From Desulfovibrio sp. UIB00 (lineage in GTDB: Bacteria > Desulfobacterota > Desulfovibrionia > Desulfovibrionales > Desulfovibrionaceae), in the NCBI RefSeq assembly GCF_022508225.1, contig NZ_JAETXJ010000002.1:558001-622000 (forward strand): 64,000 nt of DNA. Direction: 5' to 3'. The notes under the pieces were generated by a model. It was not told the origin of the DNA, did not search any database, and saw nothing but the letters and a program-made list of their open reading frames with translations. Numbering within the stretch: position 1 is the first letter of the stretch; every line of letters begins with the position of its first letter. Below are positions 27,238 through 44,400 of the stretch, one piece after another. The position numbers were made by a program, and so were the translations under genes.

Positions 27238-27308
27238 GTGCAATACCGAACTGGTGTACTGGGTTTTGCCGTCAGCGCAGGGTGCTGAAAAAAATTGAGG
27301 AGACGACC

Positions 27309-28010
27309 ATGATTGCGTGCCGTAAATGCGATCCGCTTCTTTTTTTGCAGATGTTGGTGCTGGCCTTGGGGATGCTGCTTCCTTGGCACGCGCAGGCGGC
27401 CATGCACGATGGTTTTGTGCATGTAAGCGACCGATGCCAGAATATTATTCAGGAAATACGCTATTTTTCCTCCTACAACTTTGTGGGAGAGCGCATTAAT
27501 GGATATCTTGCACCACAGGCAATCTTGACCGAACCAGCGGCGAATGCACTGTGCAAGGCCGCAGCGGCGGCGGAAGAGAAGGGCTATACCCTGAAAATTT
27601 ATGACGCCTACCGCCCGCAATCAGCAGTGGATCATTTTGTACGCTGGGGCATGAACGCCGCCGACACGCGCATGAAGGCGATTTTTTACCCGCAGGTGGA
27701 CAAGGCGCGGGTGTTTGATCTGGGCTATGTTGCCACGCGCTCCGGGCATTCGCGCGGCAGCACGGTAGACCTCACCCTCGTTGACAGGATGAGCGGCAAA
27801 GAGGTGGACATGGGCACCCCCTTTGATTTTTTTGGCGCGGCCTCGCACCATGGGGCCAAGGGCCTGAGCCCGCAGCAGGAGGCCAATCGGGCTGTGCTCC
27901 TGGGCCTTATGGAGAATGCCGGGTTCAAGCGCTATGAAGAAGAGTGGTGGCACTACACGCTTAAAAACGAGCCTTACACGGATACCTATTTCAATTTTGC
28001 GGTGGAATAA
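27309..28010 (+). CDS. VanX/DdpX-family D-alanyl-D-alanine dipeptidase, exported
   Basis: The 233-residue product is a zinc D,D-dipeptidase of the M15 family. The zinc ligands are visible: His147 and Asp154 in SGHSRGSTVD, and the His of EEEWWHY near the C terminus with its catalytic Glu. A signal peptide (hydrophobic residues 10-28 ending AQA) sends it to the periplasm, where it would cleave D-Ala-D-Ala for recycling. VanX itself is cytoplasmic, so this is the DdpX-like or housekeeping type rather than a resistance gene; vanH and vanA are absent. GAGGAG precedes the ATG at 27309. Confidence 0.88.
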   Translation: MIACRKCDPLLFLQMLVLALGMLLPWHAQAAMHDGFVHVSDRCQNIIQEIRYFSSYNFVGERINGYLAPQAILTEPAANALCKAAAAAEEKGYTLKIYDAYRPQSAVDHFVRWGMNAADTRMKAIFYPQVDKARVFDLGYVATRSGHSRGSTVDLTLVDRMSGKEVDMGTPFDFFGAASHHGAKGLSPQQEANRAVLLGLMENAGFKRYEEEWWHYTLKNEPYTDTYFNFAVE

Positions 28011-28105: not shown

Positions 28106-28975
28106 GTGAAAGTTGTCGTTTGCGCCAAGAAGGATCTTGCAGGATGTGTCGCCCTTAACAGACTGCTGGCAGCCATTGCCCCCAAGCACGATGTTTTTGT
28201 GGTTCTTTCAGATTACGTGCTGGACGCGGAGTGCAGCAATGCCTACGCGGCAAGCCTTGTGGCCCACGAGCGGAACATGGTGCTTGAGCATATTCTGCCC
28301 TGGCTGGAAGCCCGCTTTCCTGAGGGCAATGCGGCGCTGTGCCAGACCTATGCGGGCCTGCAAAAACGTTACGGCATTGATATGGAGATGTGGGGACCCA
28401 TGCGGTCGCCAGCCTCCCGGCAAGCCATGCGCGACCTTGCGCCAGATGTCGTTATCTCTTGCCGGTACGACTACGTTATTCCCCCGGAAGTCATAGATAT
28501 GCCCCGGCTTGGCACCTATGGCATGCATCCCGGCGCGCTGCCTGATCTGCAAGGCCTGTGCAGCCCTTTTCGGGCTATGGAACATGGCAATGAGCGCTCT
28601 GGCTGTACGCTTTTCCACCTTGACGCAGGTCTGGATACCGGCCCCATAGTGGAGATCGGCTGGTGGCCCATCAACTATGACCGCTCCCTGCTGTGGAACT
28701 TTGTGCATACCTATTTTGCGGGTATAGATGCCCTGTTGCGGCACCTGCCGGAACTGGAGGCAGGGCGCGAGCTGACAACCCATGTGCAGAGCAGCGAAGG
28801 CCGAAAATACTTCAGCTATCCCACCGAAGACGAATTCCGCAGGTTTATCCAGAAGGGCGGGCATATAGTTCTGCCCGAAGATTATTACGAAGTCCTGTCG
28901 TGGTTTCTGCCCGGCGGCCTGGGTGATCCCGCCATGCCCGAACTGCGGGCGCTGGTCAGCTCGCTGGAGTCCTGA
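28106..28975 (+). CDS. Formyltransferase-fold protein of unknown substrate
   Basis: The 289-residue product has the formyl-transferase N-terminal fold: an opening VVVCAKKDLAGCVALNRLL, then GMHPGALPDLQG (the N-x-H-x-x-L-L-P loop of the family) and FHLDAGLDTGPIVEIGWW with the conserved Asp. The Asn two residues before the catalytic His in Fmt and PurN is Gly here, so either the chemistry is altered or Asn comes from elsewhere. Start is GTG at 28106 behind AAAGGA. The 3' end overlaps the convergent MFS gene by 20 bases. Formylation of an amino sugar or amino acid is possible; the substrate is not readable. Confidence 0.7.
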   Translation: MKVVVCAKKDLAGCVALNRLLAAIAPKHDVFVVLSDYVLDAECSNAYAASLVAHERNMVLEHILPWLEARFPEGNAALCQTYAGLQKRYGIDMEMWGPMRSPASRQAMRDLAPDVVISCRYDYVIPPEVIDMPRLGTYGMHPGALPDLQGLCSPFRAMEHGNERSGCTLFHLDAGLDTGPIVEIGWWPINYDRSLLWNFVHTYFAGIDALLRHLPELEAGRELTTHVQSSEGRKYFSYPTEDEFRRFIQKGGHIVLPEDYYEVLSWFLPGGLGDPAMPELRALVSSLES

Positions 28976-31358
28976 GCCGCCACATCAGGTGGAACAGCAA
29001 GGAAAGCGCGCAGACGATGCCGCCCATGAGCAACAGCGCGCTGGCAGGTGCCATGACGGTTACGGCAATGCCAAATACCACTGGCCCCGCCACCTGCCCC
29101 ATGCGCTCCAGGCCACGGTAAATCGAGGCTGTCTTTTCGCGGCCCAGAGTTTGCGCCGAGGCAAGAGTGAGAATACAGATCATTGATGCCGGGGCAGCCA
29201 GACACTGGGCCAGCCCAAGGGAGATGACCGCAGCGGCGGCTCCAGCCATAGTAGTAGCCGTTGCCGCAATGAGCAGCGTAATGCCGGAGAGCAGACCTGT
29301 GAGCGTCAGAAACAGGGATTTGTCTTTTCTGTGATCTATCCATTTGCCAAGCAATGGCCCCGCCGTAATAAAACACAGGCCGTACAGCATGAATATACGG
29401 CCGATATCCGATTGATCCACATGGGCGTTTGCAAGCCGCAACGGCAGCAGATAGTGCAAAAATCCGGTCAGGCACATGGCGGCGGGTATGCCCACCAGCC
29501 AGAGTATCATGTGCATGCGCGGGTCTTGCAGCAATTGCATGCAGCCTGAAAACATATGCCCCTGGGCAGCGGTCTGCGCACCAGAGCCCTGACAGGCCGC
29601 GTTGCCGGAACTGTTTGCTGCGGCCTCTGCGGGGTCTTTGCCAAGCATCACGGTGAACAGCGCCAGCAATATGGTGCAGGAGCCGGTCGCCAGAACGGCC
29701 TGAAACGAAACATGATCCGCCAGCATGGCCCCCGCTGCAGAGCCGCAGATGCTGCCGGAAAAAATGCCAGCAAACACACTTGTGAGCCCCGCCCCGGCAT
29801 TGGCCTTGCCCAGTGTGCCGATCTGCCCGGCCATGAGCACAAGGCCAAAGCCGAAGCCTGTGGCAACGCGCCCCATAATAAGCAGGTGCAGGCTGTTGGC
29901 CATGCCGCCCATCATCAGGCCCACAGCCGCAGCCAGAGTGCCGGCGGCAAAGACCTTTCGCCAGCCGTAGCGCAACGAAAAACCGCCGGAAAACAGCAGG
30001 GCAAAGCCCGCGCTGACCATTTCTGCCGAGATGGGCAGGCCAATGGCCACATCGCGGCTCAGGCCCATGAACGGCTCGTACAACTGGCGGGCCAGCAGGG
30101 GAATGAACGATATGCCCATGTCGTAGCCCAAAAAGAACACAAAGCCCGCTGCCCGCAAAGCCTGCACGGCGAGGGAATGATGGCTGCCCATAAGGGCGTT
30201 CGCCGCAGCATCCGGCGGGAGGTTGCGTTGCGCGATTAGGCCCAGCAGCTTTGAAAGCTCCAGCAGCAGCAAAAAGCTGATGAGTAGCGAGGCTCCAAGG
30301 TCAAGGGCCAACGCCGATATGCGGGCTGTGATGGCCTGGGGCTGCACGGCCAGTTGCAGACGCAGCACTTCCTGCTTTTGGCGGAAGCGGCTGGGCCAGT
30401 AGGTGCTCAGTGATTTTTCAACCGTGAGCGTCGGGTCGGGCACGTTCCCGGCAGAGGCCACAGCCGTGCCTTCAGGCGTTAGCAATTGCGCGCCCGCAAG
30501 TTCGCTGTTGGCTGCCAGCAACTGTTCAAGGGCCTGATCTTTGCCGCGCAGGCTGGCGATATCCACGCCTTTGTGGATGAGGTATTCAAAATCGCGCCCT
30601 GTGCCTTCGGCGAGGATGTCGGCCTTGGTGCGCACGGCCTGTTTGACGAAGGTATCGAACAGCACCAGCGTACCGCAGGCGTAGAGCAATTGCGATGTGC
30701 CGATGATGATGAGCAGCATTCTGGTCATGCCCGAAAGGCTTGTGCCCACCGCGCGTTGCCCGGTCAAGAGGCCAAGACGCCCGGCCAGAATCAGCCCCGC
30801 CACAAGGCAGGCCGCTGCAAGCAGAAGGGATGACAGGCGCAGAAAATCTTCCGTAGCTGCATTGATGGGCTTGCCGTCAATGTCCACCAGCAGGTGTCCC
30901 ACGGGCGTTTTGTTGCTCAGGGGTATGCGCAGTCGGTAGCCATCAGCGGTTTTGATTGCGCCTTGCGGGCCGTCTTTGCCCTCGCTGGTCTGTGAGGTCG
31001 TACCGGATGGCAATATGCCTTCCGCTGCTGAGCCCTGAGCTGGCTGGGCATAGAGTGTGGCCCCCCCCGCATCAATAATGGCCACACGTTTGATGCCCGC
31101 CGCGCTCTGACCCAGTTCCGCCAGCATTTCGTCCATTCCGGCGAACGAAGGCAGCGGCTTGCCAAAGCGCATGCCGCGTTCAATATCGCGGGCCAGACGT
31201 TCAGCACCGCTGCGATAGCCGGAAAGCACCATGTCGGTTGCCAGCGTATTCAGCGTGGAAACCGAGAGCAGCACGTTGAAGCCCAGAGTAACCAGCAGAA
31301 CTCCAAGCCCAAGCAGCAGGGCATTGATGCGCAGTTTGCGCGTGGCGCGGATAAGCAC
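28956..31358 (-). CDS. Two-sensor-domain MFS transporter fusion
   Basis: The 800-residue product has an architecture I do not know from standard transporters. TM1 (about 12-32) is followed by an extracytoplasmic domain (33-165), two TM helices (about 170-233), a second extracytoplasmic domain (234-340), another TM, and then a 12-helix major facilitator domain (about 395-795). MFS loop motifs include SLRYGWRKVFAAG and a GKWIDHRKDK loop between the halves. The extracytoplasmic parts have the size and flanks of histidine-kinase or chemoreceptor sensors (double Cache-like). The start is GTG at 31358 behind AAGGA, ten bases after SBP1. It is the last gene of the eight-gene operon and might couple ligand sensing to export or import. 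Confidence 0.75.
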   Translation of the reverse strand: MLIRATRKLRINALLLGLGVLLVTLGFNVLLSVSTLNTLATDMVLSGYRSGAERLARDIERGMRFGKPLPSFAGMDEMLAELGQSAAGIKRVAIIDAGGATLYAQPAQGSAAEGILPSGTTSQTSEGKDGPQGAIKTADGYRLRIPLSNKTPVGHLLVDIDGKPINAATEDFLRLSSLLLAAACLVAGLILAGRLGLLTGQRAVGTSLSGMTRMLLIIIGTSQLLYACGTLVLFDTFVKQAVRTKADILAEGTGRDFEYLIHKGVDIASLRGKDQALEQLLAANSELAGAQLLTPEGTAVASAGNVPDPTLTVEKSLSTYWPSRFRQKQEVLRLQLAVQPQAITARISALALDLGASLLISFLLLLELSKLLGLIAQRNLPPDAAANALMGSHHSLAVQALRAAGFVFFLGYDMGISFIPLLARQLYEPFMGLSRDVAIGLPISAEMVSAGFALLFSGGFSLRYGWRKVFAAGTLAAAVGLMMGGMANSLHLLIMGRVATGFGFGLVLMAGQIGTLGKANAGAGLTSVFAGIFSGSICGSAAGAMLADHVSFQAVLATGSCTILLALFTVMLGKDPAEAAANSSGNAACQGSGAQTAAQGHMFSGCMQLLQDPRMHMILWLVGIPAAMCLTGFLHYLLPLRLANAHVDQSDIGRIFMLYGLCFITAGPLLGKWIDHRKDKSLFLTLTGLLSGITLLIAATATTMAGAAAAVISLGLAQCLAAPASMICILTLASAQTLGREKTASIYRGLERMGQVAGPVVFGIAVTVMAPASALLLMGGIVCALSLLFHLMWRLRTPAS

Positions 31359-31367
31359 AGAAAATCC

Positions 31368-32513
31368 TTAGGGTGTACCGGAGTGCGGCTGGCTGATGGT
31401 TTCGTGCAGTTCGTCCGCCGTTACCAGCACGTCAAAGGGAAAATCAAAGCCGATGGCCTTGGCGGTGGCAAGGTTCAGGGCAATGGAAGGTTCGGACTGG
31501 TCAAGCATGGGCAATGTGCGCGGCTGCGTGCCGCCCAGTATGGCGTGGGCCTGCCCGGCCAGCGCAATGCCGCTGGGGCCGAAATTCCATGTGGAAAAGC
31601 CCATGAGCGCTCCGGCTTTGACATATTCCGAACCATCACGCGCAAAGGTGGGAATCTTCCACTGATTCAGTTTTTGCAGCAGCGGGGCCATGCCTTCGCC
31701 GCCGATATCAAAGCAGTTCAGCGGGCCGATAAAAAAGGCGTCCATGCCCTGTTTGCGCAGTTCGTCCAGCCCCTTGCGGCATTCCTCCGTACTTTCGGCA
31801 GAGGAGAGGCCATCGTAGAGTACAAGGGAAAATCCCAGCTCCGAGGCAATGGCTTGGGCATCGCCAAGTGCCGCATAGACGCGGCCTTCCTGACTGTTCT
31901 GGAACATGATGCCCATTTTGTGAAAGCGCACCACATCGTAAAAAACGCGGTACATGGAGGACCAGCGGTCAACTTCCACCCGGCAGGTAAAGTTGTCCAC
32001 GCCGGAATCCTGCGCGCTTTTGACAACTCCGGCAGCCACAGGGTCAGCCATGCCCATGCCCAGGATGGGCAAACGGCCATCGTTTACCGCCAGTAAGGCC
32101 TTGACCGCCGCCGTGCCCATGCCCACCACAAGGTCAAGATCCTTGCGCTGCAGAAGCTGTTTTGCCATTTCAGGCAGGCGGCGCATCTGCGCTGGTTCCC
32201 AGCCGGGGCTAAAGTGCGCATCGGCAGGATATTCGCATCGTATGTCGTCATACTTGCCCATACCTTCGCGAAAGGCGCTCCAGGTGTTGTCGAACAACCA
32301 GAACTGCCCGGCCTCGAGATAGCCGATGCGTTTTACAGCCGGATTGGCGCAGGCGGGCTGGCAGAAGACGAAAAACAGGCCGCCCAGAATGAACATGGCA
32401 ATAATCAGCTTGGTCAGGTGCTGCCAAAGTGCAGCTGCACAAGGGCTGTGCCCCTGCTTGTGCTGCGGGCGCAGCACAAGGCATGGGGCATTGGCTGTAA
32501 TTGGAAAGAGCAT
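31368..32513 (-). CDS. Periplasmic substrate-binding protein, PF04392-like (SBP1)
   Basis: The 381-residue product resembles the ABC_sub_bind (TrpX/BMP-like) family. A signal-type segment (residues 36-56, ending ACA) precedes KRIGYLEAGQFWLFDNTW, the VVGMGTAAVKALLAVNDGRLPILGMGMADPVAAGVV core, and a second lobe with FIGPLNCFDIGG. No ABC permease or matching ATPase lies nearby. A related but distinct protein (37170-38303) starts the same operon; both contain YLEAG/YFEAGPYW-like openings and ALNCFD. The N-terminal 35 residues before the hydrophobic core are unusual, and translation may start further in. Confidence 0.78.
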   Translation of the reverse strand: MLFPITANAPCLVLRPQHKQGHSPCAAALWQHLTKLIIAMFILGGLFFVFCQPACANPAVKRIGYLEAGQFWLFDNTWSAFREGMGKYDDIRCEYPADAHFSPGWEPAQMRRLPEMAKQLLQRKDLDLVVGMGTAAVKALLAVNDGRLPILGMGMADPVAAGVVKSAQDSGVDNFTCRVEVDRWSSMYRVFYDVVRFHKMGIMFQNSQEGRVYAALGDAQAIASELGFSLVLYDGLSSAESTEECRKGLDELRKQGMDAFFIGPLNCFDIGGEGMAPLLQKLNQWKIPTFARDGSEYVKAGALMGFSTWNFGPSGIALAGQAHAILGGTQPRTLPMLDQSEPSIALNLATAKAIGFDFPFDVLVTADELHETISQPHSGTP

Positions 32514-32566
32514 GCCTACTGCGCCGCGTGAAAGAGTGTGTTCATCAGAACCGTATCCGTTGCAGC

Positions 32567-32734
32567 CTAGCAGTCATTGGGCTTTTTGGGGCTTGAGGCA
32601 ATGACAAGCAGCAGCCCCACCAAGGGGGTCAGCAGAACACTGGCAAAAAAGTTGCCCCAGAATCCAAGCCGGGAATTGATGCCCAAAAGCCCGACCAGCA
32701 GGCTCATGCCCAGTATGAGAGCTAACAGTAGCAC
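32567..32734 (-). CDS. 55-residue membrane protein
   Basis: A small gene missed by length cut-offs. GTG at 32734 is preceded five bases away by a perfect GGGAGG (complement of 32740-32745) that begins right after the SPFH stop. The product has two hydrophobic helices (about residues 1-19 and 29-47) separated by a polar GINSRLGFWGNFFAS turn and ends SSPKKPNDC. The pattern N-R-x-x-G-F-W followed by a helix with L-x-P-L-x-G-L occurs in small membrane proteins of unknown function in other bacteria, recalled rather than searched. Tight spacing on both sides supports translation as part of the operon. Confidence 0.65.
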   Translation of the reverse strand: MLLLALILGMSLLVGLLGINSRLGFWGNFFASVLLTPLVGLLLVIASSPKKPNDC

Positions 32735-32745
32735 AGCGGCCTCCC

Positions 32746-34056
32746 TTATTGTCTGACAGCGCCGCCACGGTGCGGTTGCAGCAGTGTTTTATTCAACCTC
32801 TGAATATAATCCGATACGCTTTCGCCGGGGGCGATCCAGCCTACCCCGGCGGGCGCCTGGGCTTCGGCAGACGCGGCAGAATCCTGCCTTGCGGAGTCGT
32901 TACGCGGCCCGTACTTCGGCGCATACTGCGCCCCGGATTGGGACTCGTTCTGGATTTGAGGGCGCAGGCCAGAGTGCGAATTGGGCCGGAACGGGGGCGT
33001 TTTGCCGGGTTCGGGCCGCATCTGCCCTGGCTGAACCTGACCCGGCCGCAGGGCATCGGGCCGCTTCTGGTCTGGGCTTTCCGCATCTGTTCCGGGCATA
33101 TCCGGCTTGGCAGGCGTCTGCTGAGCGCCCTGCACGGAAGCCTTGGGGGCCGCCCCCTGATTGGCCGCTTTGCCAGAGTTTGGCGCATCGGGTGCGCCTG
33201 CGCCAGTGGGCGAATCGGCATTGAGAATAACAGGCAGGCCATCCTTGCCGCCGATCACAACCACCTTGGCGTTGGACGATGTGGCAAGCTCCTTGGTGGC
33301 CTGAATGCCTTCGTAGCGCAAGAAGTTCTGCGTCATGTTCTCATTGACAAGCGTCTGGTAGGCCTTGATGCCTTCGCCTTCAATGGTTTTGCGGCGGGCT
33401 TCCTGCTGTGCCTCAAGCAGAATGTACTTGTAGCGCAGGTAATCCTGCTCCGCTATGAGCTTGCGTTCAATGGCCTCGCGCAGCACTTCGGGCAGGGTGA
33501 TACTTTTGACCACAAAGCCCTGAATAAGAATGGGGATGCGCCCCATTTCTTCCACTGCGTCCACAAGCATCTGGTCTTGCAGTTCCTGCCGCGCTGTGGA
33601 GTAGAGGTCGTCTGGGCGGTAGCTGCCGATGGTTTGCCGCACAGCGGAATTCATGATGGGGATGACGACCTTGTCGCGGTAGAGCGGCCCGATCTCCTGA
33701 TGCAGGTTGGGCAGACGGTCGCGGATGATCTGAAAACGCAGCGAAATCTGCACGTTGATGGTCAGGCCGTCTACGGTCAGCACGTCGATGTTCTGGGTTT
33801 CTTCCTGTACGCGCACATCATAGATATACATGATGTTCCACGGCTGAATAAAATGTATGCCTTCCTCGTAGGTGTGCTGCAACTGTGTGCCGCCGCGAAA
33901 GCGCGCGTACAGAACGCCCAGCTCGCCGGGCTTGATGGAAATGACGATGCTCGGCCAGAGAAACAGGAGCAGCAGCGTTGCGATAACGCCCGCGACTATG
34001 ATCCGCAGGCGATTGCGGCGCAACACTTCCCGTATATTTGCACAGACGCTTTTCAT
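32746..34056 (-). CDS. SPFH/prohibitin-family membrane protein
   Basis: The 436-residue product has one N-terminal membrane helix (about 17-37), then a band-7/prohibitin domain (about 40-240; IKPGELGVLYARF, VLTVDGLTINVQISLRFQI, SAVRQTIGSYRPDDLYS), a long alpha helix rich in Glu, Lys and Arg (190-245), and a C-terminal tail of about 170 residues rich in Pro, Gln, Ala and Ser. SPFH proteins form large membrane-bound assemblies that organise microdomains or hold partner proteins. It overlaps the preceding small gene by ATGA and is followed at 11 bases by the 55-residue membrane protein, so all three probably act together. Confidence 0.85.
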   Translation of the reverse strand: MKSVCANIREVLRRNRLRIIVAGVIATLLLLFLWPSIVISIKPGELGVLYARFRGGTQLQHTYEEGIHFIQPWNIMYIYDVRVQEETQNIDVLTVDGLTINVQISLRFQIIRDRLPNLHQEIGPLYRDKVVIPIMNSAVRQTIGSYRPDDLYSTARQELQDQMLVDAVEEMGRIPILIQGFVVKSITLPEVLREAIERKLIAEQDYLRYKYILLEAQQEARRKTIEGEGIKAYQTLVNENMTQNFLRYEGIQATKELATSSNAKVVVIGGKDGLPVILNADSPTGAGAPDAPNSGKAANQGAAPKASVQGAQQTPAKPDMPGTDAESPDQKRPDALRPGQVQPGQMRPEPGKTPPFRPNSHSGLRPQIQNESQSGAQYAPKYGPRNDSARQDSAASAEAQAPAGVGWIAPGESVSDYIQRLNKTLLQPHRGGAVRQ

Positions 34057-34544
34057 TGGTCCAACCGGTAGGTTTGCTGTGTATATTGCGCGGAGCCGCG
34101 CCAGAACATATCAAGCGTATAGTCTATGCACTGCCTTTCAAACAGAATGCAGCGTTCTTTGTCGTCTTCCGTCTGACCCATACAGATATTGTAAAGAATG
34201 GGACACATATCAACATTGAGCACAAATTCGCCAAGGTTCGGACGCGAATGGATTCCCTTGCGGGCGAGGCGCACGAGGCTCTTGACATATTTGTTATTGC
34301 AAATCTGAATGCGCTGCCCGTAATCGTGGTTTTCTTCGTAACATTTCAGTCTGTTCTGAATGGCTTGCGTGTTTTCCACCGCATTCACTTCAGAGGGCAT
34401 GGTGTCGCGCACATTGTTGTACAGTTCCCGCACAAATTGGATGTTGGAATTGCCCGTAAGGTCTTTGGCCTCGGTCACGTGCTCTGTATACAGGCACAGC
34501 AGAGCCGTCAGGGTGAGGGCAAGCCGCAGAAAATGGCTGGTCAT
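34053..34544 (-). CDS. Small secreted cysteine-containing protein
   Basis: The 163-residue product has a signal peptide (hydrophobic residues 5-18, ending TEA) and five cysteines in the mature part (KCYE, ICNNK, DMCPIL, NICMG, RCIL, RQC region), suggesting disulfides in the periplasm. Predicted structure is helical. I recognise no family. Four-base ATGA overlaps with the ABC exporter gene before it and the SPFH gene after it imply strict coupling, so a role in export, immunity or assembly with those two is likely but unproven. Confidence 0.72.
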   Translation of the reverse strand: MTSHFLRLALTLTALLCLYTEHVTEAKDLTGNSNIQFVRELYNNVRDTMPSEVNAVENTQAIQNRLKCYEENHDYGQRIQICNNKYVKSLVRLARKGIHSRPNLGEFVLNVDMCPILYNICMGQTEDDKERCILFERQCIDYTLDMFWRGSAQYTQQTYRLDQ

Positions 34545-36223
34545 GCCTGCGTCCCTTCGCCAAAGGGCTCTTCCACAAAGCCGCCTTCGCGCATGGTCAG
34601 CACTCTGTCGGCCACATGGAAGTAGCGGTCATCATGCGAGATGGCCAGAATTGTACCGCCCTGGCGGATGATATCGGGCAGCAGTTCTTCATAAAAGTAG
34701 CGGCGGAAAACAGGGTCGAAATCTGCGGCCACTTCGTCAAACAGGTAGATATGGCGCTTTTCAAGCAGCGCGCAGGCCAGGGCAAGACGTTTGCGCTGCC
34801 CGGCAGAAAGATCAAGCGTGGAGAACGTGCCGTCTTCGAGCAGGCTCACCTTGGTTTCCATGTGCAGGGTGCGCAGCACATCCGTGAGCTGGGTCGGGGT
34901 GATGTTCAGGCCGAGGGGCCGGGAAAAAAGGTGATAGTCTGTAGGCACAATGGTGAAGAGGTTACGGTAGGATTCCATGTCAACGTCGGAAAGCATGACG
35001 TTGTTCAGGAGCATTTCTCCGCTCTCGGGCGCGTACAGCCCGGCCAGCACCTTCATGAAGGTGGACTTGCCCGACCCGTTGCCGCCGCGAATAAACACCA
35101 GTTCGCCCTTGCGCAGTTCAAAGCTGTCCACCGCAATGCCGAAAAGCCGTATGCCGTTGCGGTCATGGTAGTCAAAACGCACATCGCGCAGGGCGATGGA
35201 GTCAAAAGACGGCACCGTGGGGTCGGCCTGCTGCCAGCGCGCCTTGACTCCCGCGTTTTCAAATGGTTCCGTCACGGCGTCTATCTGCGATTCCACCGCT
35301 GCAAGTTCCTGCAGGCTCATTTCTACCTTTGCCATCATGGGCACCGAGGTAATCAGGCTGATGAGCGGGCTCAGGCTGAACATGCACAATACGAGCAAGG
35401 AGGAAGTTTCCGACGTTTCGAGGCTCAAAATCTTGGGCATGATAAAAAGTATCAGCCCCAAAATCAGCAGATTGAACATGGCGAAAAATGATATGCCAAG
35501 GGCGTGCCTGTGTTCGGTCGCGTCCCGGGCTTCTGATGCCACAGAAAGGTCGGGGATGATCTGCTCGCCAAACAGTGCTGTGGTCCTTGGCTTGTGCATC
35601 TTGAGTTGCAGCAGCCCGGCGTAAAGGTCGCGCAGGCCCGCGCAGAAGCGCTGGTCGGCTTGCATGGCTGGCCCCATGTGCGCATGCACCTTGTTGATAA
35701 GGTGCAGAAAAATCCAGAACCCCATGGCAAGAAAAAGAAAAACACCCAGCGTACCGGGTATGGAGACAGTTGCCATTTTGGCAAAAGAGAGCACGACCAT
35801 CACCGTATTGGCCGAGGCAGCCACCAGCATACGGGCCGCTTCAACCACCATTTCGCGTCCGTCAAGCAGGGCGGACTGGATACGGTTTTTGTCCAGTTTT
35901 TCATATTCCAGTAGGGAAACGCCGCGCAGCTTGGCGGCAATGCGCATGCGCCATTCCATGATGCCGCGCAGGGCAATCTGTGCCGAGCGCCCTGTGATGT
36001 AGCGGAAGAGAAAATAAAAGGAGGCGAGACTCACCAGAAAAGCAAGAAAGGTGCTGAATTCCAGCCCGTCTTCAGAAAGCTGCTGCAAGCCCTGAAGCAC
36101 AGAAAAAACGGCAAGCCCCTGCATGATGCCTGAGCCGAGGCAGGCGGCGGCAATTTTTTTGCCTTCCTCGCCGGCCTGTTCCCACAGAAGTTTCAGAAAA
36201 AGCGATTCTTTCAGTTGCAGCAT
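34541..36223 (-). CDS. Cyclic-peptide/siderophore-type ABC exporter
   Basis: The 560-residue product is a fused ABC half-transporter: about six N-terminal membrane helices (residues 20-300), then an ATPase with Walker A RGGNGSGKSTFMKVL (about 380), signature LSAGQRKRLAL (about 470) and Walker B IYLFDEVAADFDP. The helices-then-ATPase layout and the SAGQ signature with Asp-Glu-Val-Ala-Ala-Asp-Phe-Asp are typical of the SyrD/PvdE/YojI cyclic-peptide exporter family. Next to an NRPS locus this is the obvious candidate to carry the product across the inner membrane. It overlaps the small secreted protein gene by four bases. Confidence 0.88.
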   Translation of the reverse strand: MLQLKESLFLKLLWEQAGEEGKKIAAACLGSGIMQGLAVFSVLQGLQQLSEDGLEFSTFLAFLVSLASFYFLFRYITGRSAQIALRGIMEWRMRIAAKLRGVSLLEYEKLDKNRIQSALLDGREMVVEAARMLVAASANTVMVVLSFAKMATVSIPGTLGVFLFLAMGFWIFLHLINKVHAHMGPAMQADQRFCAGLRDLYAGLLQLKMHKPRTTALFGEQIIPDLSVASEARDATEHRHALGISFFAMFNLLILGLILFIMPKILSLETSETSSLLVLCMFSLSPLISLITSVPMMAKVEMSLQELAAVESQIDAVTEPFENAGVKARWQQADPTVPSFDSIALRDVRFDYHDRNGIRLFGIAVDSFELRKGELVFIRGGNGSGKSTFMKVLAGLYAPESGEMLLNNVMLSDVDMESYRNLFTIVPTDYHLFSRPLGLNITPTQLTDVLRTLHMETKVSLLEDGTFSTLDLSAGQRKRLALACALLEKRHIYLFDEVAADFDPVFRRYFYEELLPDIIRQGGTILAISHDDRYFHVADRVLTMREGGFVEEPFGEGTQA

Positions 36224-36434
36224 GTGGTTCTGTGGCCCCGGTGTTCAGGTGCGCCGCGCATTACAGCATGTCCGGCGGTCTTGTATGCGCCCCTTTGCAG
36301 TGCAGGGACTCTGACAAATCAATAGGTAACGCTGCCGCAACGGCAGCCACGCCTTTGCCAAGGCCAGGAGCGTACGCTCTGTCAGCCCGCTTCGGCATGC
36401 GCACGGCTGGGTACGGCAGGCGTAACAGCCAACA

Positions 36435-36470
36435 CTTCCGTAAGGGCCAGTTGCCCGGCCCATACGGAAG
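36435..36470. repeat. Imperfect inverted repeat in the 282-base gap before the exporter
   Basis: A 14-base arm starting CTTCCGTA (36435-36448) pairs with the arm ending TACGGAAG (36457-36470) with one mismatch and an eight-base loop. No T run follows on either strand. It could slow polymerase or protect mRNA between the DUF697-like gene and the exporter. Confidence 0.5.
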
Positions 36471-36505
36471 GTTCCGATTCCCGAAACCGTCAGAGATCGC
36501 CGAAA

Positions 36506-37129
36506 CTAGGCCGCGTTGGTGTCCGCTTCTTTGGCAGGGGCTTCAGCGGCGGTTTCGTTCTTGGCTTCCTTTTTCATCTTGTTCTTGATCTTGCCGACAA
36601 AGGTTTTGCCTTCTTCAACCTTTTCCTTGAAGTAGGTCTTGGCTTCTTCGGTATTGAAATCAATCAGGTTGCCGCCCTTTCTGAAGTGGCGGTCAAAAAC
36701 CCAGCCAAGGGCATAGGTGCTGGCGCCGCCCATGATGCTGATGGTGGCCGCGCCAGCGGTGAAGCCAATGACCGGAATGCTTTTCAGCAGCGAGGCGGCC
36801 AAGGGCACGCTTGCCGTGGTCAGCAGGCCGCCGCACAGCGAAGAAATGATGGATTTGACGCGTTCCTTTTTGAATTCAACGCCGTGGGCCTGGGCCAGCG
36901 CGTGAATAAGCTCAATCTGGAGGGCGGAAAGGCCCAGAAAATCTACAAGGGGGACCGGCACAAAACCAATGCCGATAGCGCCGTACACGCGCTTGCGGAT
37001 GATGGCGTCCACCACTTCTTCCGAAGGGCAGGCGCGTTCGCACGTTTCCGTTTCAGCAGCGGTTTCGGCCTGGCAGGCCATCTGATCTTCAACGCCGTCG
37101 ACCTTGTTTTCCAACGTATCTTTTGTCAT
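36506..37129 (-). CDS. DUF697/YcjF-like membrane protein
   Basis: The 207-residue product contains the DUF697 pattern: VVDAIIRKRVYGAIGIGFVPVPLVDFLGLSALQIELIHALAQAHG (residues 44-88), then two hydrophobic stretches (LCGGLLTTASVPLAASLLKSIPVIGF and a glycine-rich helix) and a GWVFDRHFRKGG segment. The N-terminal 40 residues are acidic with three Cys and the C-terminal 45 are Lys/Glu-rich. DUF697 proteins are usually partnered with membrane-associated GTPases, none of which is present here. The ATG at 37129 has GAGG upstream. It lies 40 bases after SBP2. Confidence 0.75.
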   Translation of the reverse strand: MTKDTLENKVDGVEDQMACQAETAAETETCERACPSEEVVDAIIRKRVYGAIGIGFVPVPLVDFLGLSALQIELIHALAQAHGVEFKKERVKSIISSLCGGLLTTASVPLAASLLKSIPVIGFTAGAATISIMGGASTYALGWVFDRHFRKGGNLIDFNTEEAKTYFKEKVEEGKTFVGKIKNKMKKEAKNETAAEAPAKEADTNAA

Positions 37130-37169
37130 GTGCAACCTCGTTGTGACCGGTTTCAGGGTTACGGGAATT

Positions 37170-38303
37170 TTATTGAGCAACGGCCGTTTTATCAACGCCC
37201 GCCAGTGTGACGTCAAAGAGTTCGTCTGCCGAAATGAGCAGAATCAGCGGTAGATCCATGCCCATCTTCTGGGCCGTCACCAGATTCAGCGCAATCTTGG
37301 GCGTGTAGGCCGCAGTCTCAAGCTGGGCATTAGGCGGCAGCAGGCCAAGCTGGGCGGCAATATGGTCAGCATAAAATTTGCCAAGGGGAACATAGTCAAG
37401 GGTCGAAAGCCCCATCAGCGCGCCCCTGCGCACGTGTACGCTGCCGTCGCGCGCAAAGGTCTTGATGTGGTGGGCGTTGAGCGTGTCAAAGATGGCCTGC
37501 GGGTTGGCCTGCGTCCAGTCAAAGCAGTTGAGGGCCGAAATGTAAAAGGCATCCACGCCAGCTGCCAACAGCCTGTCCACGCCTTTGGTGCACGATTCCA
37601 TGCTCTCCGCCTTGTCCAGAAAGGGGTACTCCACAAGAGTAAAGCCGCGCTCGCGCGCAACCTCGCGCGCTTCCCGCACGTTGGAGTATGAAAGTCCCTC
37701 GGGGCTGTCGTGATACATGATGCCAAGGCGAAGAAAGGGCAGCGCCTCATGAAACAGGGCAAAGACCTTGAACCATTTGTCCTTGGTGTAGCGGATGGTC
37801 AGGTTGGCGGCGCCCTTGCCGGTGGCGCGATCCACAATGCCAGCGCCTGCCGGGTCTGCCACGTCAACGCTCATGATGGGCGTTTTGCCGTTGTTTTCGG
37901 CAAGCAGGGCCTTGGTGGCCTCTGTTCCCATACTGATGATGACATCGATATTCGGATTTTGCATCAGTTTGCGGGCCTCTGCGCGGTAAACGCTCTCAGA
38001 GGCATCCCAGCCGGGGCTGATGTACAGCTCGTCCGGCAGGGTAATGCGGTCGGCAACCCCGCGTTGCCGCAGCGCTTTGATGATTTCTTTTTGCAGCAGG
38101 GTAAACTCCCAGTACGGTCCGGCTTCAAAATAGGCCGCAACCTTGAGGCGCGAGGCTTTGGGCTGGGAGGGCGCCGGGGCTGACGCTGTCATCTGTTCCA
38201 CAGGCTCGCGCTGGGGGGCCGCCTGCACGTTTGCGCACAGGAATATTGCGCAGCAAAACGCTGCGGCAAGTGTGGCGAAGAACGATCCGAGGCGGCTGCT
38301 CAT
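37170..38303 (-). CDS. Periplasmic substrate-binding protein, PF04392-like (SBP2)
   Basis: The 377-residue product starts MSSRLGSFFATLAAAFCCAIFLCANVQA, a signal peptide, so the ATG at 38303 was preferred over a longer frame. After a Pro/Gln-rich linker come VAAYFEAGPYWEFTLLQ, VIISMGTEATKALLAENNGKTPIMSVDVADPAGAGIV and FYISALNCFDWTQANP, matching SBP1 segment by segment. It heads the eight-gene minus-strand operon. No permease of the same ABC class is nearby, so the two proteins may serve the MFS fusion or act as sensors. A good Shine-Dalgarno sequence is not evident. Confidence 0.78.
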   Translation of the reverse strand: MSSRLGSFFATLAAAFCCAIFLCANVQAAPQREPVEQMTASAPAPSQPKASRLKVAAYFEAGPYWEFTLLQKEIIKALRQRGVADRITLPDELYISPGWDASESVYRAEARKLMQNPNIDVIISMGTEATKALLAENNGKTPIMSVDVADPAGAGIVDRATGKGAANLTIRYTKDKWFKVFALFHEALPFLRLGIMYHDSPEGLSYSNVREAREVARERGFTLVEYPFLDKAESMESCTKGVDRLLAAGVDAFYISALNCFDWTQANPQAIFDTLNAHHIKTFARDGSVHVRRGALMGLSTLDYVPLGKFYADHIAAQLGLLPPNAQLETAAYTPKIALNLVTAQKMGMDLPLILLISADELFDVTLAGVDKTAVAQ

Positions 38304-38582: not shown

Positions 38583-39326
38583 TCAACGGGCAAGGCAGAC
38601 CACAACGTCAAGGCAGGAGCTATGAGCCGCCACGCTGCACTGGTAATCCTCTGTTGTTCTGATGTCGAGGCTTGTCCATTGCCCGCCATCCTCAAGCATT
38701 GTAGCTGTGCCTTGGGCGGCGTTTGCAGTGAAGGATGCTATCCAGCCGCTGTCTTGCGGCCCGGTGTTTACGCTAAAGCTTTGCAGGGGAATGCTCAGGC
38801 CCATGCCCACAGCCTTGATTATGGCCTCCTTGCGCGTCCAGCAGCGGTAAAAGGCCGTTTGCAGCTCCGCCTGGGGCAGGGACAGCAGGTCTTTTTGCTC
38901 CTGCGGGTGCAGCTGGCTGGTCAGCTCCGCCGCATCGGGCAGGGGGCGCATGCTTTCCACATCAATGCCCACGCTCGCGCATCGGCAAAGGGCCACCCAT
39001 ACCATGCTGCCCGAATGGCTGATGGAAAAATCAGCGGATACTCCGGGGCAAAAGGGCTTGCCATAAGGGGAGCGGGCAAACTCTGCGACGCAATCCTGCC
39101 CAAAGGCGGCGCGCAGCAGACGCCGCGCCAGCGCCCTGCCTGCCAGATGCCGCGCCGCATCTTCTATATGCAGATAGCGTCCGGCCTCTTGTTGCTCCTG
39201 TGGGGAGGTGTGTAGCGCGCACTGGCTGGGCCATTCAGCGATGTTTTCAAGCTCCAGGCCAACACACAGGATGGACTTTTCCGGGGCGGACGGTGCGCGC
39301 CAGTTGCAAAAATGTTGCGCCAGCAC
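38583..39326 (-). CDS. Sfp-type 4'-phosphopantetheinyl transferase
   Basis: The 247-residue product is an Sfp/EntD-class PPTase. The N-terminal half contains RYLHIEDAARHLAGRALARRLL and FSISHSGSMVWVAL. The magnesium-binding motif VGIDVE and the WTRKEAIIKAVGMGLS helix follow in order, with length as in Sfp. It converts the T and ACP domains of the two megasynthases from apo to holo form by attaching phosphopantetheine to their Ser residues. Translation from a GTG at 39326, three bases after the thioesterase stop, couples it to the kamA-like operon. Confidence 0.93.
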   Translation of the reverse strand: MLAQHFCNWRAPSAPEKSILCVGLELENIAEWPSQCALHTSPQEQQEAGRYLHIEDAARHLAGRALARRLLRAAFGQDCVAEFARSPYGKPFCPGVSADFSISHSGSMVWVALCRCASVGIDVESMRPLPDAAELTSQLHPQEQKDLLSLPQAELQTAFYRCWTRKEAIIKAVGMGLSIPLQSFSVNTGPQDSGWIASFTANAAQGTATMLEDGGQWTSLDIRTTEDYQCSVAAHSSCLDVVVCLAR

Positions 39327-39329
39327 CGC

Positions 39330-40046
39330 CTAACCCGCCGTATGAAGGGCGCGCGCCATGTGGTCTGCCAATTCCTGCCAGTGATCCTGAACGTAAAAAT
39401 GGCCGCCGCTGAAGGTGCGCACCGTGCATTGCGCATCTGTCAGGGTTTGCCAGTGCAGGGCGTCAGCCTCGGTAACGAGATCATGGCTGCCAATGGTGGT
39501 GTGGATGGGCAAGGGTAACGGGCTGTAGGGGGCGGGCTGCCATCCTTCTATGGCCATAAAGTCAGCGCGGAGCACAGGTTCAAGGTAGTTTCTGAAATCC
39601 TGCGACTGCGCAATCTCGGGCGGAATGCCGCCCATGCGGGCCACGTAGTCCCACAGCGCGCCTTTGGGGAGCTGATCAACAGGGGATGAAATCCCGGTGC
39701 GCATCCGGCCTGGCGTGGTGGCGGACGAAATGAACAGGGCCGTAGGCAAGGGCAGCGCCGCATCGCAGGCAAAATGCGCGCAAAGAAAGGCCAGCATCCC
39801 GCCCATGCTGTGACCGAACAGGGCATAGGGGCCAGTGTGGGCGGCAGAGCGTATCTGTTCCAGCAGGTCGCGCCCCATGCTTTCCATGCTGGTAAGCAGC
39901 CGTTCCCGGCAGCGGCGGCCTTTGCCTGGCAGTTCCAGAGGTCTTACGGTGATCCATGCCGGAAAAAATTCGTTGAACCTCGCATAAAAGGCGGTATTGC
40001 CTCCGGCGTGGGGAATACAGAAAAGTGTTGTAGCCGTGTGTTGCAT
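39330..40046 (-). CDS. Type II thioesterase (GrsT/TycF-like)
   Basis: The 238-residue product is an alpha/beta hydrolase of the NRPS/PKS editing thioesterase family. It has LFCIPHAGGNTAFYARF near the start, the nucleophile elbow GHSMGG (about residue 93), the catalytic Asp in GSHDLVTEADALHW and the His in FSGGHFYVQDH. Such enzymes remove wrong acyl groups from carrier domains. It sits nine bases after the aminomutase-like gene and three bases before the PPTase gene. It is separate from the C-terminal thioesterase of the second NRPS. Confidence 0.93.
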   Translation of the reverse strand: MQHTATTLFCIPHAGGNTAFYARFNEFFPAWITVRPLELPGKGRRCRERLLTSMESMGRDLLEQIRSAAHTGPYALFGHSMGGMLAFLCAHFACDAALPLPTALFISSATTPGRMRTGISSPVDQLPKGALWDYVARMGGIPPEIAQSQDFRNYLEPVLRADFMAIEGWQPAPYSPLPLPIHTTIGSHDLVTEADALHWQTLTDAQCTVRTFSGGHFYVQDHWQELADHMARALHTAG

Positions 40047-40055
40047 GTGTTGCGC

Positions 40056-41192
40056 CTACAGTTCAACCCATCCGGCATCGTCATCAAGCTTTTGGATGAT
40101 GATGCGCGAGGCCTGTTCTTCGTGCCCGATGCGGGCATGCATCTGCTTGAGAACAATATTGCCCTCGCTCATGCCGCAGATTTCCAGCTTGCCGATGTCG
40201 TGGCCGATTATGTACTTGAAGCGCTTGCCATAGCCGCTGAGTTGCGCCTTTGCCTTGTCCACAATGGCGATGCCCTGCTTGAGCGGCAGTTGAAAATGGT
40301 GCCGCACTCGTGAGACCGGCATGCACTGGTACAGATAATACGGGTTCACACCAATGGAAAGCAGACGGTTCATCAGTTTGACAATGTCTTCCGTACTGTC
40401 GTTGACGCCGCGCAGCAGCACCGCCTGATTGTTGATGGTGGCCCCGCACAGGCGCAGCCTCTTGATGGCCTCGGCCGAGGTGAGCGTGATCTCGCGCGCA
40501 TGATTGTAGTGCGTGGCAATGTACAGAGCCTTGCGCTCAGCAAAGGTGCGCAGGGCGTCCATGAGGGTGTCGTCAAAGATGCGTAGCGGATATGTGACCG
40601 GAATGCGCGTACCGATGCGTACAAAATCCACATGGTCGATCCCGGCCAGCCCCTCCAGCATTTTTTGCAGCACCGGGGTTGCCAGCGTCAGGGGGTCGCC
40701 GCCGGAAAGAATGACGTTGTTGATCTTGGGATGGTCGGCAATGTATTGCAGCGCCCCGGCAAAGTTGCGCAGGGTCTGCTGGCTGGAGTGTCCTACAATG
40801 CGGCGGCGAAAGCAGTGGCGGCAGTGCATGGCGCAGCATTCTGTCGTGACCAGCAGTGCAGTGCAGTCGTATTTATGCAGTACGCCATTGCCCTTGTCAT
40901 GCTTGTCGTCGCCGTAGGGGTCGGCAGTTGTCGCGCCCATGGATCCGGCAACCACCAGTTCTTCCGCATCAGGGAAGCACATACGGCGGATGGGATCGCT
41001 GGGATCGTTTTTATCTATAAGGCTCAGATAATAGCGGGGAATGTTGACCGGGTGCACCTTGGCGACTTCACGAAGCGTCGCTTCCTCCTGTGGACTGAAG
41101 GTGGCGTATTGCTTCAACTGGTCGATGGTGACGACATTGTTGGCAAGTTCCTTTTTCCAGTCTAGGCATTTCCAGCAAGGTTCAGCTTCCAT
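40056..41192 (-). CDS. Lysine 2,3-aminomutase-family radical SAM enzyme with unusual substrate residues
   Basis: The 378-residue product belongs to the KamA family (PLP-dependent radical SAM amino-acid mutases). The iron-sulfur motif is CCAMHCRHC (CxxxCxxC), followed by RRRIVG, ILSGGDPLTL, RIGTRIPVTYPLRI and the family's QAVLLRGVN. In lysine aminomutase the side chain is held by two Asp: one in a YQCD motif, the other about 37 residues later. Here these positions read YQCMPV and YIIGHD, so neither Asp is kept, and the Lys/Asn pair described for glutamate 2,3-aminomutase is not obvious either. The substrate is probably another amino acid. As first gene of the operon with the thioesterase and PPTase, divergent from the NRPS, it likely supplies a beta-amino acid. 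Confidence 0.85.
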   Translation of the reverse strand: MEAEPCWKCLDWKKELANNVVTIDQLKQYATFSPQEEATLREVAKVHPVNIPRYYLSLIDKNDPSDPIRRMCFPDAEELVVAGSMGATTADPYGDDKHDKGNGVLHKYDCTALLVTTECCAMHCRHCFRRRIVGHSSQQTLRNFAGALQYIADHPKINNVILSGGDPLTLATPVLQKMLEGLAGIDHVDFVRIGTRIPVTYPLRIFDDTLMDALRTFAERKALYIATHYNHAREITLTSAEAIKRLRLCGATINNQAVLLRGVNDSTEDIVKLMNRLLSIGVNPYYLYQCMPVSRVRHHFQLPLKQGIAIVDKAKAQLSGYGKRFKYIIGHDIGKLEICGMSEGNIVLKQMHARIGHEEQASRIIIQKLDDDAGWVEL

Positions 41193-41430: not shown

Positions 41431-44400
41431 ATGGCAAAGATTGTGCCTCTAACCGGGTGTCAAAAAGAACTGTGGCTCTCTGCAAAAGCGGCGCTGTCCG
41501 ACTATGCTGAAACCTCCATTCGGGGTTGTTATCACGTTGACGCCCGGCTCGATCCCGATCTGTTGCGCCAGGCCATCAAGCGTACGCTGCATTTCACGCC
41601 TCTGCCCGCCGCCTCCCTGTGCCAGGATGAAGCTGAGCCGTACTTTCTTGTGGGTGAACCGCAGGAGCCTGATTTCAGGGTTCTGGACGCCGCAGCGCAA
41701 CCGGATCCCGTCGCCGCTGCCGACCGCATGATCGACGAGTTTTTTGAAGAACCGGTCGAAAACCCCCTTATGCGCTACGCCCTTGTCATCACTGGCGAGG
41801 CAAGCTGCATCGTTGCCATGAAGTGCTCGCACGTGGTGTTGGACGGGCTGGCATTCTTTTTTCACATAGCTGTCATTGCGGACGTTTACACAGCACTCGC
41901 ACGCGGAGAAACGCCAGACCTTGGCGAGCCGTGCTCCTGCGAAGAAGCCTACCTTGAAGATCAGGCGCACTGCGCCTCGCCGCGTTTTCAGAAAGACATG
42001 GCCTTTTGGCAGGAACACCTCTCCCGCCTGCCAGAAAAACGCCTGCTGCGCGCCCTGCCGGGGCGGCCCGATGTGCTTGGCGAGAGCCGTCACCAGAAGT
42101 TTGTGCTGTCAGAAAAAGCCTCGCGCGAAACTTCTGCGCTCATTGCCGCCCACAAGGTCAGCCCTGCGGTGTTTTTTACGGGCGTCTACGCACTCATAGT
42201 GTCGTTCATGACTGGAGAAAAAGACATTGTGGCTCTTGCCCCCGTGGCCTACGGGGAGCGGAAGGTGTTGTACCGGCGGCAGGGGGCCATGATGTCGCTG
42301 CCGCCCCTGCTGGTGAACGTGCCCGCGCACGATACCCTTGCCGGGCTTCTGGAGGCCATCAGCGCGCAGAATGGCTCGTTTTACCGCCATGTGCGCACGC
42401 CTTATCAACTGGCTGCCCGCCAGCTTGAAGGCAAAAACTTTGCCTTTCTGGCAGATACCTTTGTCAATTTTCTGCCCCATACGCCTCCCGGCACGCCGGA
42501 ATTCCCCATTGTCGAGGCGGAGCAGAGGCATAGCGCCAAGGAGCCGATCCTTTTCGGCACTCTGGTTATGCAGGAACTGCGCTCGGGCTGCTTTTCGCTC
42601 ACGGTGCGCAACAGTCGCAACCACCTGAGCAATAGGGATGTGGAGCGTTTTGTCGCCCGCGTTGAGAGTGTAGTGGCCCAGCTTGCCGCTGGCATTGAGC
42701 CGCCGCAGCTTGATTATCTGCTGGATGAAGAAAAGCGGGAACTCGCGCAATGGCGCAGCGGCCCTGCCAGGACGTATGATATCCGTTCCTTGCCCGAACT
42801 TTTTGACACTGCTGCGGATGCCTTTGCCGAGCGCGTTGCCGTCAAGGACGAATGGGGCAATGCCCTTTCGTACGCGCAGGTGCGGGAAAATTCCCTGCGT
42901 TGCGCCTCGTGGCTGGCTGGGCAGGGCGTTACCCGGGGCGGCATTGTGGCTGTGTCGGCGCAGCGCACGGCCAATCTGCCCGAAGTTGTGCTTGGCATCC
43001 AGCGGCTTGGCGCAAGCTATCTACCCATCGACCCCAAGGCCTCACCCGAGCGCATGGCCTATATTGTGGAAGACGCCGGAGCAGACATCACGCTTGATCT
43101 GGCCGACCTTGCCTACCGCCAATCCCCAATAACGCCCCTGCCGCAAGCGCCCCGGGTAGAGGATGGAGCCTACCTGATCTACACCTCCGGCTCCACGGGC
43201 AAGCCCAAGGGGGTGCTGGCTCCGCACGGCGGCTTTGCCAATATGATTCAGGGGCAGATCGAGCTTTTTGGCGTACAGGCAGATGACCATGTCTTGCAGT
43301 TTGCGCCGCCCATTTTTGACGCCTCGTTGTCGGAAATGTTCATGGCTCTGCTGGCAGGGGCCGCCCTGTACCCGGTGAGCGACCAGTGCCGCAACGCGCC
43401 CTGGACGCTGCGACAGTACATGATTGATAACGACATAACCGTTGTCACCCTGCCGCCCTCGTACCTCAATCTTTTTGAGGGAGAGCCCTTCCCCGGCTTG
43501 CGAGTGCTCATAACGGCGGGCGAGCCGCCGGTGGTGGGCGATGCCCTGCACTATGCCAAGGGCCTGCGTTATTTCAACGCCTACGGGCCCACGGAAACGT
43601 GCGTCTGCGCGGCCATGAAGGAAGTTTTGCCCTTTGAGCCGCAACCCATCAGCGTGGGCAACCCCATCCCCAACGTGACGCTTTCCATCCGCAATGGCGA
43701 GGGGCGCGAGATGCCCGCAGGCATGGCGGGCGAACTGTGGATAGGCGGGGCAAGCCTTGCCATCGGCTACCACAACAAGCCTGAAATGACGGAGCAGCGT
43801 TTTATCCACCTGCCGCAGGAAAAAAACACCCGCTTTTACGCGTCTGGTGATCTGGCCTTATGGTCGGACAGGGGCGAAATCCTGCTGCTGGGCCGCGCTG
43901 ACGATCAGGTGAAGATTCGCGGCAACCGGGTGGAGCTGGCCGAGGTGGCCTGCCTGCTTGAAAGCTGTGAAAGCGTCAGTCAGGCGGCGGTGCTGGCCGT
44001 CAAGGATGCGGGCGGTCAGGCCAGCCTTGCGGCTTTTTTTGTGCTGCGGCCCGGCGCATCCATAGAAACGGTGGTTTCGTGGAGCAGAACAAGTCTGCCG
44101 CCCTACATGGTGCCCTCGGCCTGGCACGTGCTTGAAGCCATGCCCCTTGCCCCCACAGGCAAGATAGACCGCAAGGCTCTGCAAAATATTGCACGGCGCG
44201 GTGAAGCGCAGGGCGGCAGTGACCGTAAGCCCCATGCTGGGCTTCTGGAGATTTTTGAGCGCGTCCTTGGCCGGGCCTATGATCCCGAAAAAAGCTTTTT
44301 TGCCCAGGGCGGCAACAGCCTTAACGCCATGTCGTTGCTGCATGCCATCCGCAAAACTTTTAACGTTGATATCTCCTTCCGCAGTTTTGTCAGCTGCGAG

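Follow-up and report, generated by a model that had tools for sequence, protein, structure and literature searches.

A conserved SPFH/ABC-exporter gene set that accompanies an NRPS/PKS cluster in Desulfovibrionales and recurs in smaller form beside other assembly lines

How the products of NRPS/PKS assembly lines pass through the Gram-negative inner membrane without harm to the producer is understood in few cases. The question is posed by a locus of Desulfovibrio sp. UIB00 at which a large NRPS/PKS cluster stands beside genes for an ABC exporter, an SPFH membrane protein and two solute-binding proteins (SBPs). The stretch of DNA analysed (the window, 64,000 nucleotides) corresponds to C2:558001-622000 of the 3.46-Mb genome (G000). 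The initial annotation described eight genes on one strand, with overlaps or short gaps apart from one gap of 282 bases, and read them as a single envelope machine serving the adjacent NRPS. All eight open reading frames are present in the ORF list, on the minus strand and together spanning 28956-38303 of the window. In the order of transcription, SBP2 and the DUF697 gene lie 40 bases apart and the DUF697 and ABC genes 282 bases apart; the ABC-Cys and Cys-SPFH junctions are 4-base overlaps; and gaps of 11, 53 and 9 bases separate the SPFH, 55-aa, SBP1 and MFS genes, so that every junction other than the long one measures between -4 and 53 bases. The features are listed below, fractions giving the occurrence of each gene in the fetched DNA of the 20 genomes that carry the small cysteine protein (Cys protein).

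37170..38303, minus strand: SBP2, soluble periplasmic solute-binding protein (PF04392; ORF extendable to 38552); 19/20
36506..37129, minus strand: DUF697 protein (PF05128; ATG start at 37129); 19/20
34541..36223, minus strand: ABC exporter of the PvdE/SyrD cyclic-peptide type (Pfam, NCBIfam); 20/20
34053..34544, minus strand: small, probably secreted protein in which six cysteines are invariant; no family above cut-off
32746..34056, minus strand: SPFH (Band_7) protein, prohibitin-like, with one N-terminal TM segment and a Pro-rich tail; 20/20
32567..32734, minus strand: 55-aa two-TM protein with an LGFWGxFFAS..LTP core; 18/20
31368..32513, minus strand: SBP1, solute-binding protein, paralogue of SBP2 (PF04392); 12/20
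28956..31358, minus strand: MFS protein whose N-terminal 400-residue part has two extracytoplasmic regions between TM segments; 13/20
28106..28975, plus strand: formyltransferase-like protein (PF00551), its gene convergent and co-occurring with the MFS gene; 12/20
38583..39326, minus strand: Sfp-type phosphopantetheinyl transferase (PPTase); 13/20
39330..40046, minus strand: type II thioesterase (TEII); 14/20
40056..41192, minus strand: KamA-family radical SAM protein, lysine 2,3-aminomutase-like; 14/20
41431..58212, plus strand: 5593-aa NRPS/PKS hybrid with KS, DH and KR but no AT domain match (domain matches)
58209..61742, plus strand: 1177-aa NRPS with an A domain interrupted by a methyltransferase, a PCP and a TE (domain matches)

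Pfam recognizes both SBPs (PF04392) and the DUF697, ABC (ABC_tran), SPFH (Band_7) and MFS (MFS_1) proteins; it returned nothing for the 55-aa protein and nothing above cut-off for the Cys protein. The KamA, TEII and PPTase genes precede SBP2 on the same strand, with a 279-base gap before SBP2, and run divergently from the two NRPS genes. At the other end, the formyltransferase-like gene lies tail to tail with the MFS gene, with a 20-base overlap. Scans of the sequence gave 5 promoter sites against 4.9 expected by chance and 21 terminators against 16.2, and Rfam matched two tRNAs only. A gene for a VanX-type D-Ala-D-Ala dipeptidase (27282-28010) adjoins the formyltransferase gene; among eight genomes compared it was matched in place in G068, G114 and G040 only.

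The Cys protein, which has no match above cut-off in the family libraries, served to find the set elsewhere. It is present in 9/149 genomes drawn from the family; an alignment search found it in 20/348 genomes of the order, covering 7/59 genera, and 395 genomes drawn from the phylum gave 6 matches, one of them outside the family. Around the 20 Cys-positive genomes of the order, in which the Cys protein itself is constant by choice, the families travel together: the ABC exporter and SPFH genes were found in all 20, DUF697 and SBP2 in 19, the two-TM gene in 18, KamA and TEII in 14, MFS and PPTase in 13, and SBP1 and the formyltransferase in 12. Gene order is the same in five relatives (G068, G114, G040, G038, G096); in G145 the set runs up to the contig end, and in G061 it is rearranged and lacks SBP1 and MFS. 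Content and order also recur in other genera, more than chance would give; the gene maps of several relatives come from a rough gene caller, with several names assigned by eye.

Contig ends account for the missing DUF697 and SBP2 genes of G590 and for the missing two-TM gene of G145 and G708. They also account for three of the eight genomes lacking SBP1 (G145, G538, G708), while some room is left in G061, G601, G667, G712 and G547 (the last of which lacks SBP1 only). The contig continues past the set in G061 and G601, about 7 kb is left in G667 and about 2.8 kb in G712; the absence of SBP1 and its neighbours has no contig end to explain it in the first two genomes and probably none in the other two. 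Because SBP1, MFS and the formyltransferase are missing where contigs go on, two blocks can be separated: SBP2, DUF697, ABC, Cys, SPFH and two-TM are nearly constant, and SBP1, MFS and formyltransferase are optional. The eight genes are therefore not a single indivisible machine, since SBP1 and MFS belong with the formyltransferase to the separable block. In G061, a gene for a PF00144 beta-lactamase-family hydrolase with an apparent signal peptide (L027:8705-9853) lies between the exporter and DUF697 genes; PF00144 enzymes can act on exported precursors, and one might guess at such a role here.

A connection of the set to the neighbouring NRPS had been proposed from its position, and the distribution of the genes bears it out. 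The 9/149 family genomes that carry the Cys protein are also the only ones in which the 1177-aa NRPS was found (E <= 1e-150), the two 149-genome draws being taken as the same set on agreeing handles; an identical nine would arise by chance with a probability of ~1e-14 if genomes were independent, which they are not. Joint presence persists after separation: in G021 the NRPS pair, KamA and TEII are on contig 3 and the envelope genes on contig 8, where a further NRPS of ~2264 aa is inserted between the DUF697 and ABC exporter genes (L025:1964-8758). NRPS/PKS domains lie near the Cys gene in 15/20 genomes, or 16 counting the A- and C-domain matches of G667, and in G547 condensation domains occur in a 5446-aa frame ~27 kb from it. 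Across the order a condensation domain was detected in 65/348 genomes, comprising 20/20 Cys-positive genomes versus 45/328 others, this and the other genome-wise comparisons (Cys, NRPS) being uncorrected for kinship. Dedication of the set to this NRPS is thus well supported.

Sequence analysis of the proteins indicates what such a set might do. The ABC protein, named an exporter at the outset, aligns over its full length to TIGR01194 (cyclic peptide export), a family that includes PvdE; with 280.9 bits against a cut-off of 286.2 it is classed as TIGR01194-like rather than as a member, because the score falls just under the cut-off. The SPFH protein belongs to the superfamily (PF01145, 99.6 bits, cut-off 23.6), and a profile search of the PDB placed it nearest to the prohibitins 8rrh, 9unl, 9o9z and 9urz (E 1.6e-16 to 1.8e-13), with HflC at E 0.044. 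Its only NCBIfam match is HflK (TIGR01933), at 28.7 bits against a cut-off of 159.4, which excludes membership; because HflK is nonetheless the best match in that library, SPFH may have a role in quality control. Positive charges precede the single TM segment, and the SPFH domain is therefore predicted to lie on the periplasmic side.

The Cys protein is probably secreted: its N-terminus resembles a signal peptide by eye, although a hydropathy scan flagged no TM segment. Six cysteines are invariant in the aligned members. Its structure model is all-helical (pLDDT 70.6), and a fold search with this model gave no match (best E 1.1). Both SBPs have the PF04392 domain, show about 40% identity between the SBP1 and SBP2 types, and are the sole PF04392 proteins of the genome; the nearest solved relatives of SBP1 belong to an amino-acid-type family. 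No cognate permease or ATPase is encoded within the set. The genome has ten PF02653 permease matches, in pairs on four other contigs and none on contig C2, so that both SBPs are, as far as tested, the orphans they were first taken for, though they may use one of the ten distant permeases. A plain uptake operon was rejected on the same grounds, namely the lack of a permease in the set and the location of the PF02653 permeases on other contigs. The MFS gene is single copy in the genome, and the sensor-like N-terminal part of its product gave a weak structure model (pLDDT 56). Counted at the outset as a second exporter, the MFS protein may transport in either direction. No family function is assigned to the DUF697 group or to the two-TM protein in the libraries searched.

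In the PKS part of the assembly line KS, DH, KR and a RhiE-like linker were found and no acyltransferase matched at E <= 1e-5, and it is called trans-AT type on this basis. Judged by eye against specificity codes, the two A domains read in the large NRPS are presumably aromatic (the first) and serine-like (the second), and that of the 1177-aa protein presumably glutamine-like. An aromatic residue in the product would fit an aromatic-binding SBP family, which is only a lead. In the 1177-aa NRPS (58209-61742) the methyltransferase interrupts the A domain near its N-terminal side, between early A-domain motifs. The genome carries a second NRPS of the 1177-aa type (G000:C3:57016-60477, 62-63% identity, with a counterpart in G068:C20), and the surrounding 60 kb holds no large NRPS and no envelope genes. 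A second copy of the set for this enzyme was looked for and rejected: there is none within 60 kb, and the genome has one Cys match and three Band_7 matches.

A search of genome contigs with the SPFH alignment revealed 61 loci. Seven of these (L028-L034, one labelled Desulfuromonadales) also carry the Cys protein. At 16 of the remaining 54, DUF697 and/or the two-TM protein is encoded close to SPFH; these loci derive from Acetobacteraceae, Magnetospirillum and other Alphaproteobacteria, two Methylococcaceae, two Delftia, an unclassified proteobacterium, Desulfosediminicola, Opitutaceae and Roseivirga. The exporter is present in the fetched DNA at 10/16, and all four core parts (SPFH, DUF697, two-TM, exporter) at nine: L046, L058 (where the two-TM match is weak, 22 bits), L060, L068, L073, L076, L083, L084 and L087. 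NRPS/PKS domains occur at 11/16 (L038, L041, L042, L049, L058, L060, L068, L073, L076, L083, L084) versus 1/38 loci without DUF697 or the two-TM protein (L088, a fragment), a difference with a Fisher value of 4.9e-7 for loci that are not independent: the SPFH rows of L083 and L084 are identical, L038, L041 and L042 are near copies, and 36/37 lone-SPFH rows form one clade, nearly all Bacteroidota. The Pfam check for PCP-TE pieces covered only those core loci that had a thioesterase-type match. A quick SPFH tree with long branches, from which L028-L032 and L088 were left out, spreads the core-linked rows over Desulfobacterota, Pseudomonadota, Verrucomicrobiota and Bacteroidota, with the Roseivirga row outside the lone clade.

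Four of the five core loci without NRPS/PKS domains nearby are in genomes with a condensation domain elsewhere; in the genome of the fifth, L087 (G740, a 2.2-Mb record), none was found. Of ten lone-SPFH genomes searched, three have a condensation domain and five a DUF697 gene of the set's type. DUF697 alone is no marker, because in these five it stands without the rest: the stretches fetched around it (L165-L169) gave no match to SPFH, the two-TM protein or the exporter. In one lone-SPFH genome, G748, a condensation domain lies ~12 kb from DUF697 on the same contig. Binding proteins recur as well. The gene after SPFH is a Peripla_BP_6 protein in L035, L041, L046 and L049 and an SBP_bac_8 protein in L060, and profile matches add an SBP near SPFH in L038, L042 and L044 (a piece cut by the contig end), giving 8/16; in the other eight the models used found none. 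With PF04392 in Desulfovibrionales, three Pfam classes of SBP thus stand near SPFH across lineages, and different classes in the same place suggest that the role calls for a binding protein rather than for one particular importer. Outside Desulfovibrionales the recurring parts are therefore SPFH, DUF697 and two-TM, often with the exporter and often with an SBP of another class.

Some of these distant loci hold further genes. A CmlA-type diiron beta-hydroxylase (PF18456) is encoded between the Delftia NRPS and the DUF697 gene (L083:4227-5843), and at three loci of Alphaproteobacteria SPFH is followed by a second, divergent DUF697 gene (L073:5251-5871, L076, L056). The Delftia gene map, named by eye, shows no TonB receptor. 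A paper on Delftia tsuruhatensis deals with a delftibactin-like NRPS cluster (PMC5099486), which may or may not be that of L084.

These data have led us to propose, tentatively and at somewhat less than an even chance, that the set forms an inner-membrane station for export and containment, reserved for what the neighbouring NRPS/PKS makes. The PvdE-type exporter would move the finished product into the periplasm, where the prohibitin-like SPFH protein would form a membrane-anchored dome around the exporter. The two-TM and DUF697 proteins may be membrane partners of the dome, DUF697 being turned towards the cytoplasm, where the assembly line lies. In or at the dome the exported product would be picked up by the Cys protein and the soluble SBPs, which would hold it away from the membrane of the producer and hand it on; SBP1 and the sensor-MFS protein, where present, might add a step of sensing or transport. 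In favour of such a station are the coincidence of Cys protein and NRPS in nine genomes, the condensation-domain contrast, the split contigs of G021, the nearest relatives of the exporter and of SPFH, the three SBP classes and the spread of core rows over several phyla. Against it stand the 6/16 distant loci without an exporter in the fetched DNA, the 8/16 without an SBP by the models used, HflK as the best NCBIfam match, the lone DUF697 genes and the L087 genome. A broader form of the proposal, possible and held with more reserve, would make the prohibitin-like dome, DUF697, the GFWG-type two-TM protein and the cyclic-peptide-type exporter a general Gram-negative module of secondary metabolism, in which finished NRPS/PKS products are collected from the assembly line and kept in a compartment of the periplasm, the SBPs that receive them being interchangeable.

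The same parts could instead organize synthesis, if SPFH, DUF697 and the two-TM protein hold the NRPS/PKS megaenzyme at a membrane microdomain, of which the exporter is only one client. Such a platform would explain why the core stands beside NRPS/PKS genes at most of the distant loci even though some have no exporter of this kind in the fetched DNA, and in L172 DUF697 directly precedes an NRPS gene; we consider it unlikely, however, as the SPFH domain is predicted to be periplasmic, away from the assembly line, and sequence places the SBPs and the Cys protein in the periplasm. If the product damages the producer membrane, SPFH and its partners might serve in quality control of the HflK/HflC kind, outside the export path. 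The sub-threshold HflK match points in this direction, and a part in stress responses would suit DUF697 and small membrane proteins, but the nearest solved relatives are prohibitins rather than HflK/C, the set includes no FtsH or NfeD gene, and the SBPs are left unexplained, which makes this quite improbable.

Close to the view of the initial annotation is a metallophore cycle as in pyoverdine, in which export and periplasmic maturation are followed by binding of the loaded compound by the two SBPs and its recovery. A TIGR01194-type exporter and two orphan SBPs are what it would need, yet no TonB receptor and no hydroxamate or catechol enzyme was found among the cluster proteins, to which the scan was confined, and the nearest solved relatives of SBP1 are of the amino-acid type. 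PF04392 is not known as a metallophore class of SBP, and we regard the cycle as more doubtful still. Mere co-location inherited from an ancestor, with no functional NRPS connection, is barely credible: the nine family genomes include several close relatives, with four in the home genus, but the distribution is patchy (20/348 genomes, 7/59 genera), joint presence outlasts separation onto different contigs, and the arrangement recurs in other phyla.

Comparison with known systems sets the proposed station apart from each. Like PvdE/SyrD-type NRPS clusters (TIGR01194), the locus combines an NRPS, a PPTase and a TEII with an exporter of that type, but its exporter scores just under the cut-off and is embedded in an SPFH/DUF697/two-TM/Cys/SBP set, which is not known from described clusters. 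The prohibitin complex provides the nearest solved relatives of the SPFH protein, likewise with a single N-terminal TM segment; the protein here has a Pro-rich tail, and its gene stands with those of an ABC exporter and an NRPS. For human prohibitins, a bell in the inner membrane has been proposed, built of 11 alternating subunits of two kinds (PMC11991916); the set has one SPFH gene. HflK/HflC and SPFH-NfeD operons also encode bacterial SPFH membrane proteins, but the protein of the set matches HflK weakly (28.7 bits) and is accompanied by no NfeD. TrpX/CD0873-type amino-acid uptake uses the PF04392 family as well, but here there is no permease in the set and no further PF04392 protein in the genome, and the SBPs score 52.9 and 45.4 bits against the TrpX family (cut-off 390).

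In keeping with the claim that no such combination had been described, the open-access literature, searched by full text and judged mostly from the titles and abstract starts of the best-ranked papers, yielded no account of a set joining SPFH/DUF697 with NRPS/PKS; the one paper to pair SPFH with nonribosomal peptides concerned cyclosporin in brain injury, and none paired DUF697 with nonribosomal peptide synthetases. Judged in the same way, no open-access paper listed on Desulfovibrio NRPS dealt with this cluster. The main text of a 2026 survey of SPFH loci in P. aeruginosa does not contain the terms NRPS, nonribosomal or pyoverdine (PMC13086221). Together with the smaller version found next to other assembly lines of several phyla, the set suggests that NRPS/PKS products are exported or contained in a way not yet described. 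It gives the DUF697 group, the two-TM protein and a prohibitin relative a shared, testable context, and could help to find NRPS/PKS clusters, in anaerobes as elsewhere. In three lineages the set is bordered by RND-type efflux genes, at L087:10952-14431, L126 (G547) and L024 (G021), with one adaptor protein confirmed by Pfam in L087 and the other RND names assigned by eye.
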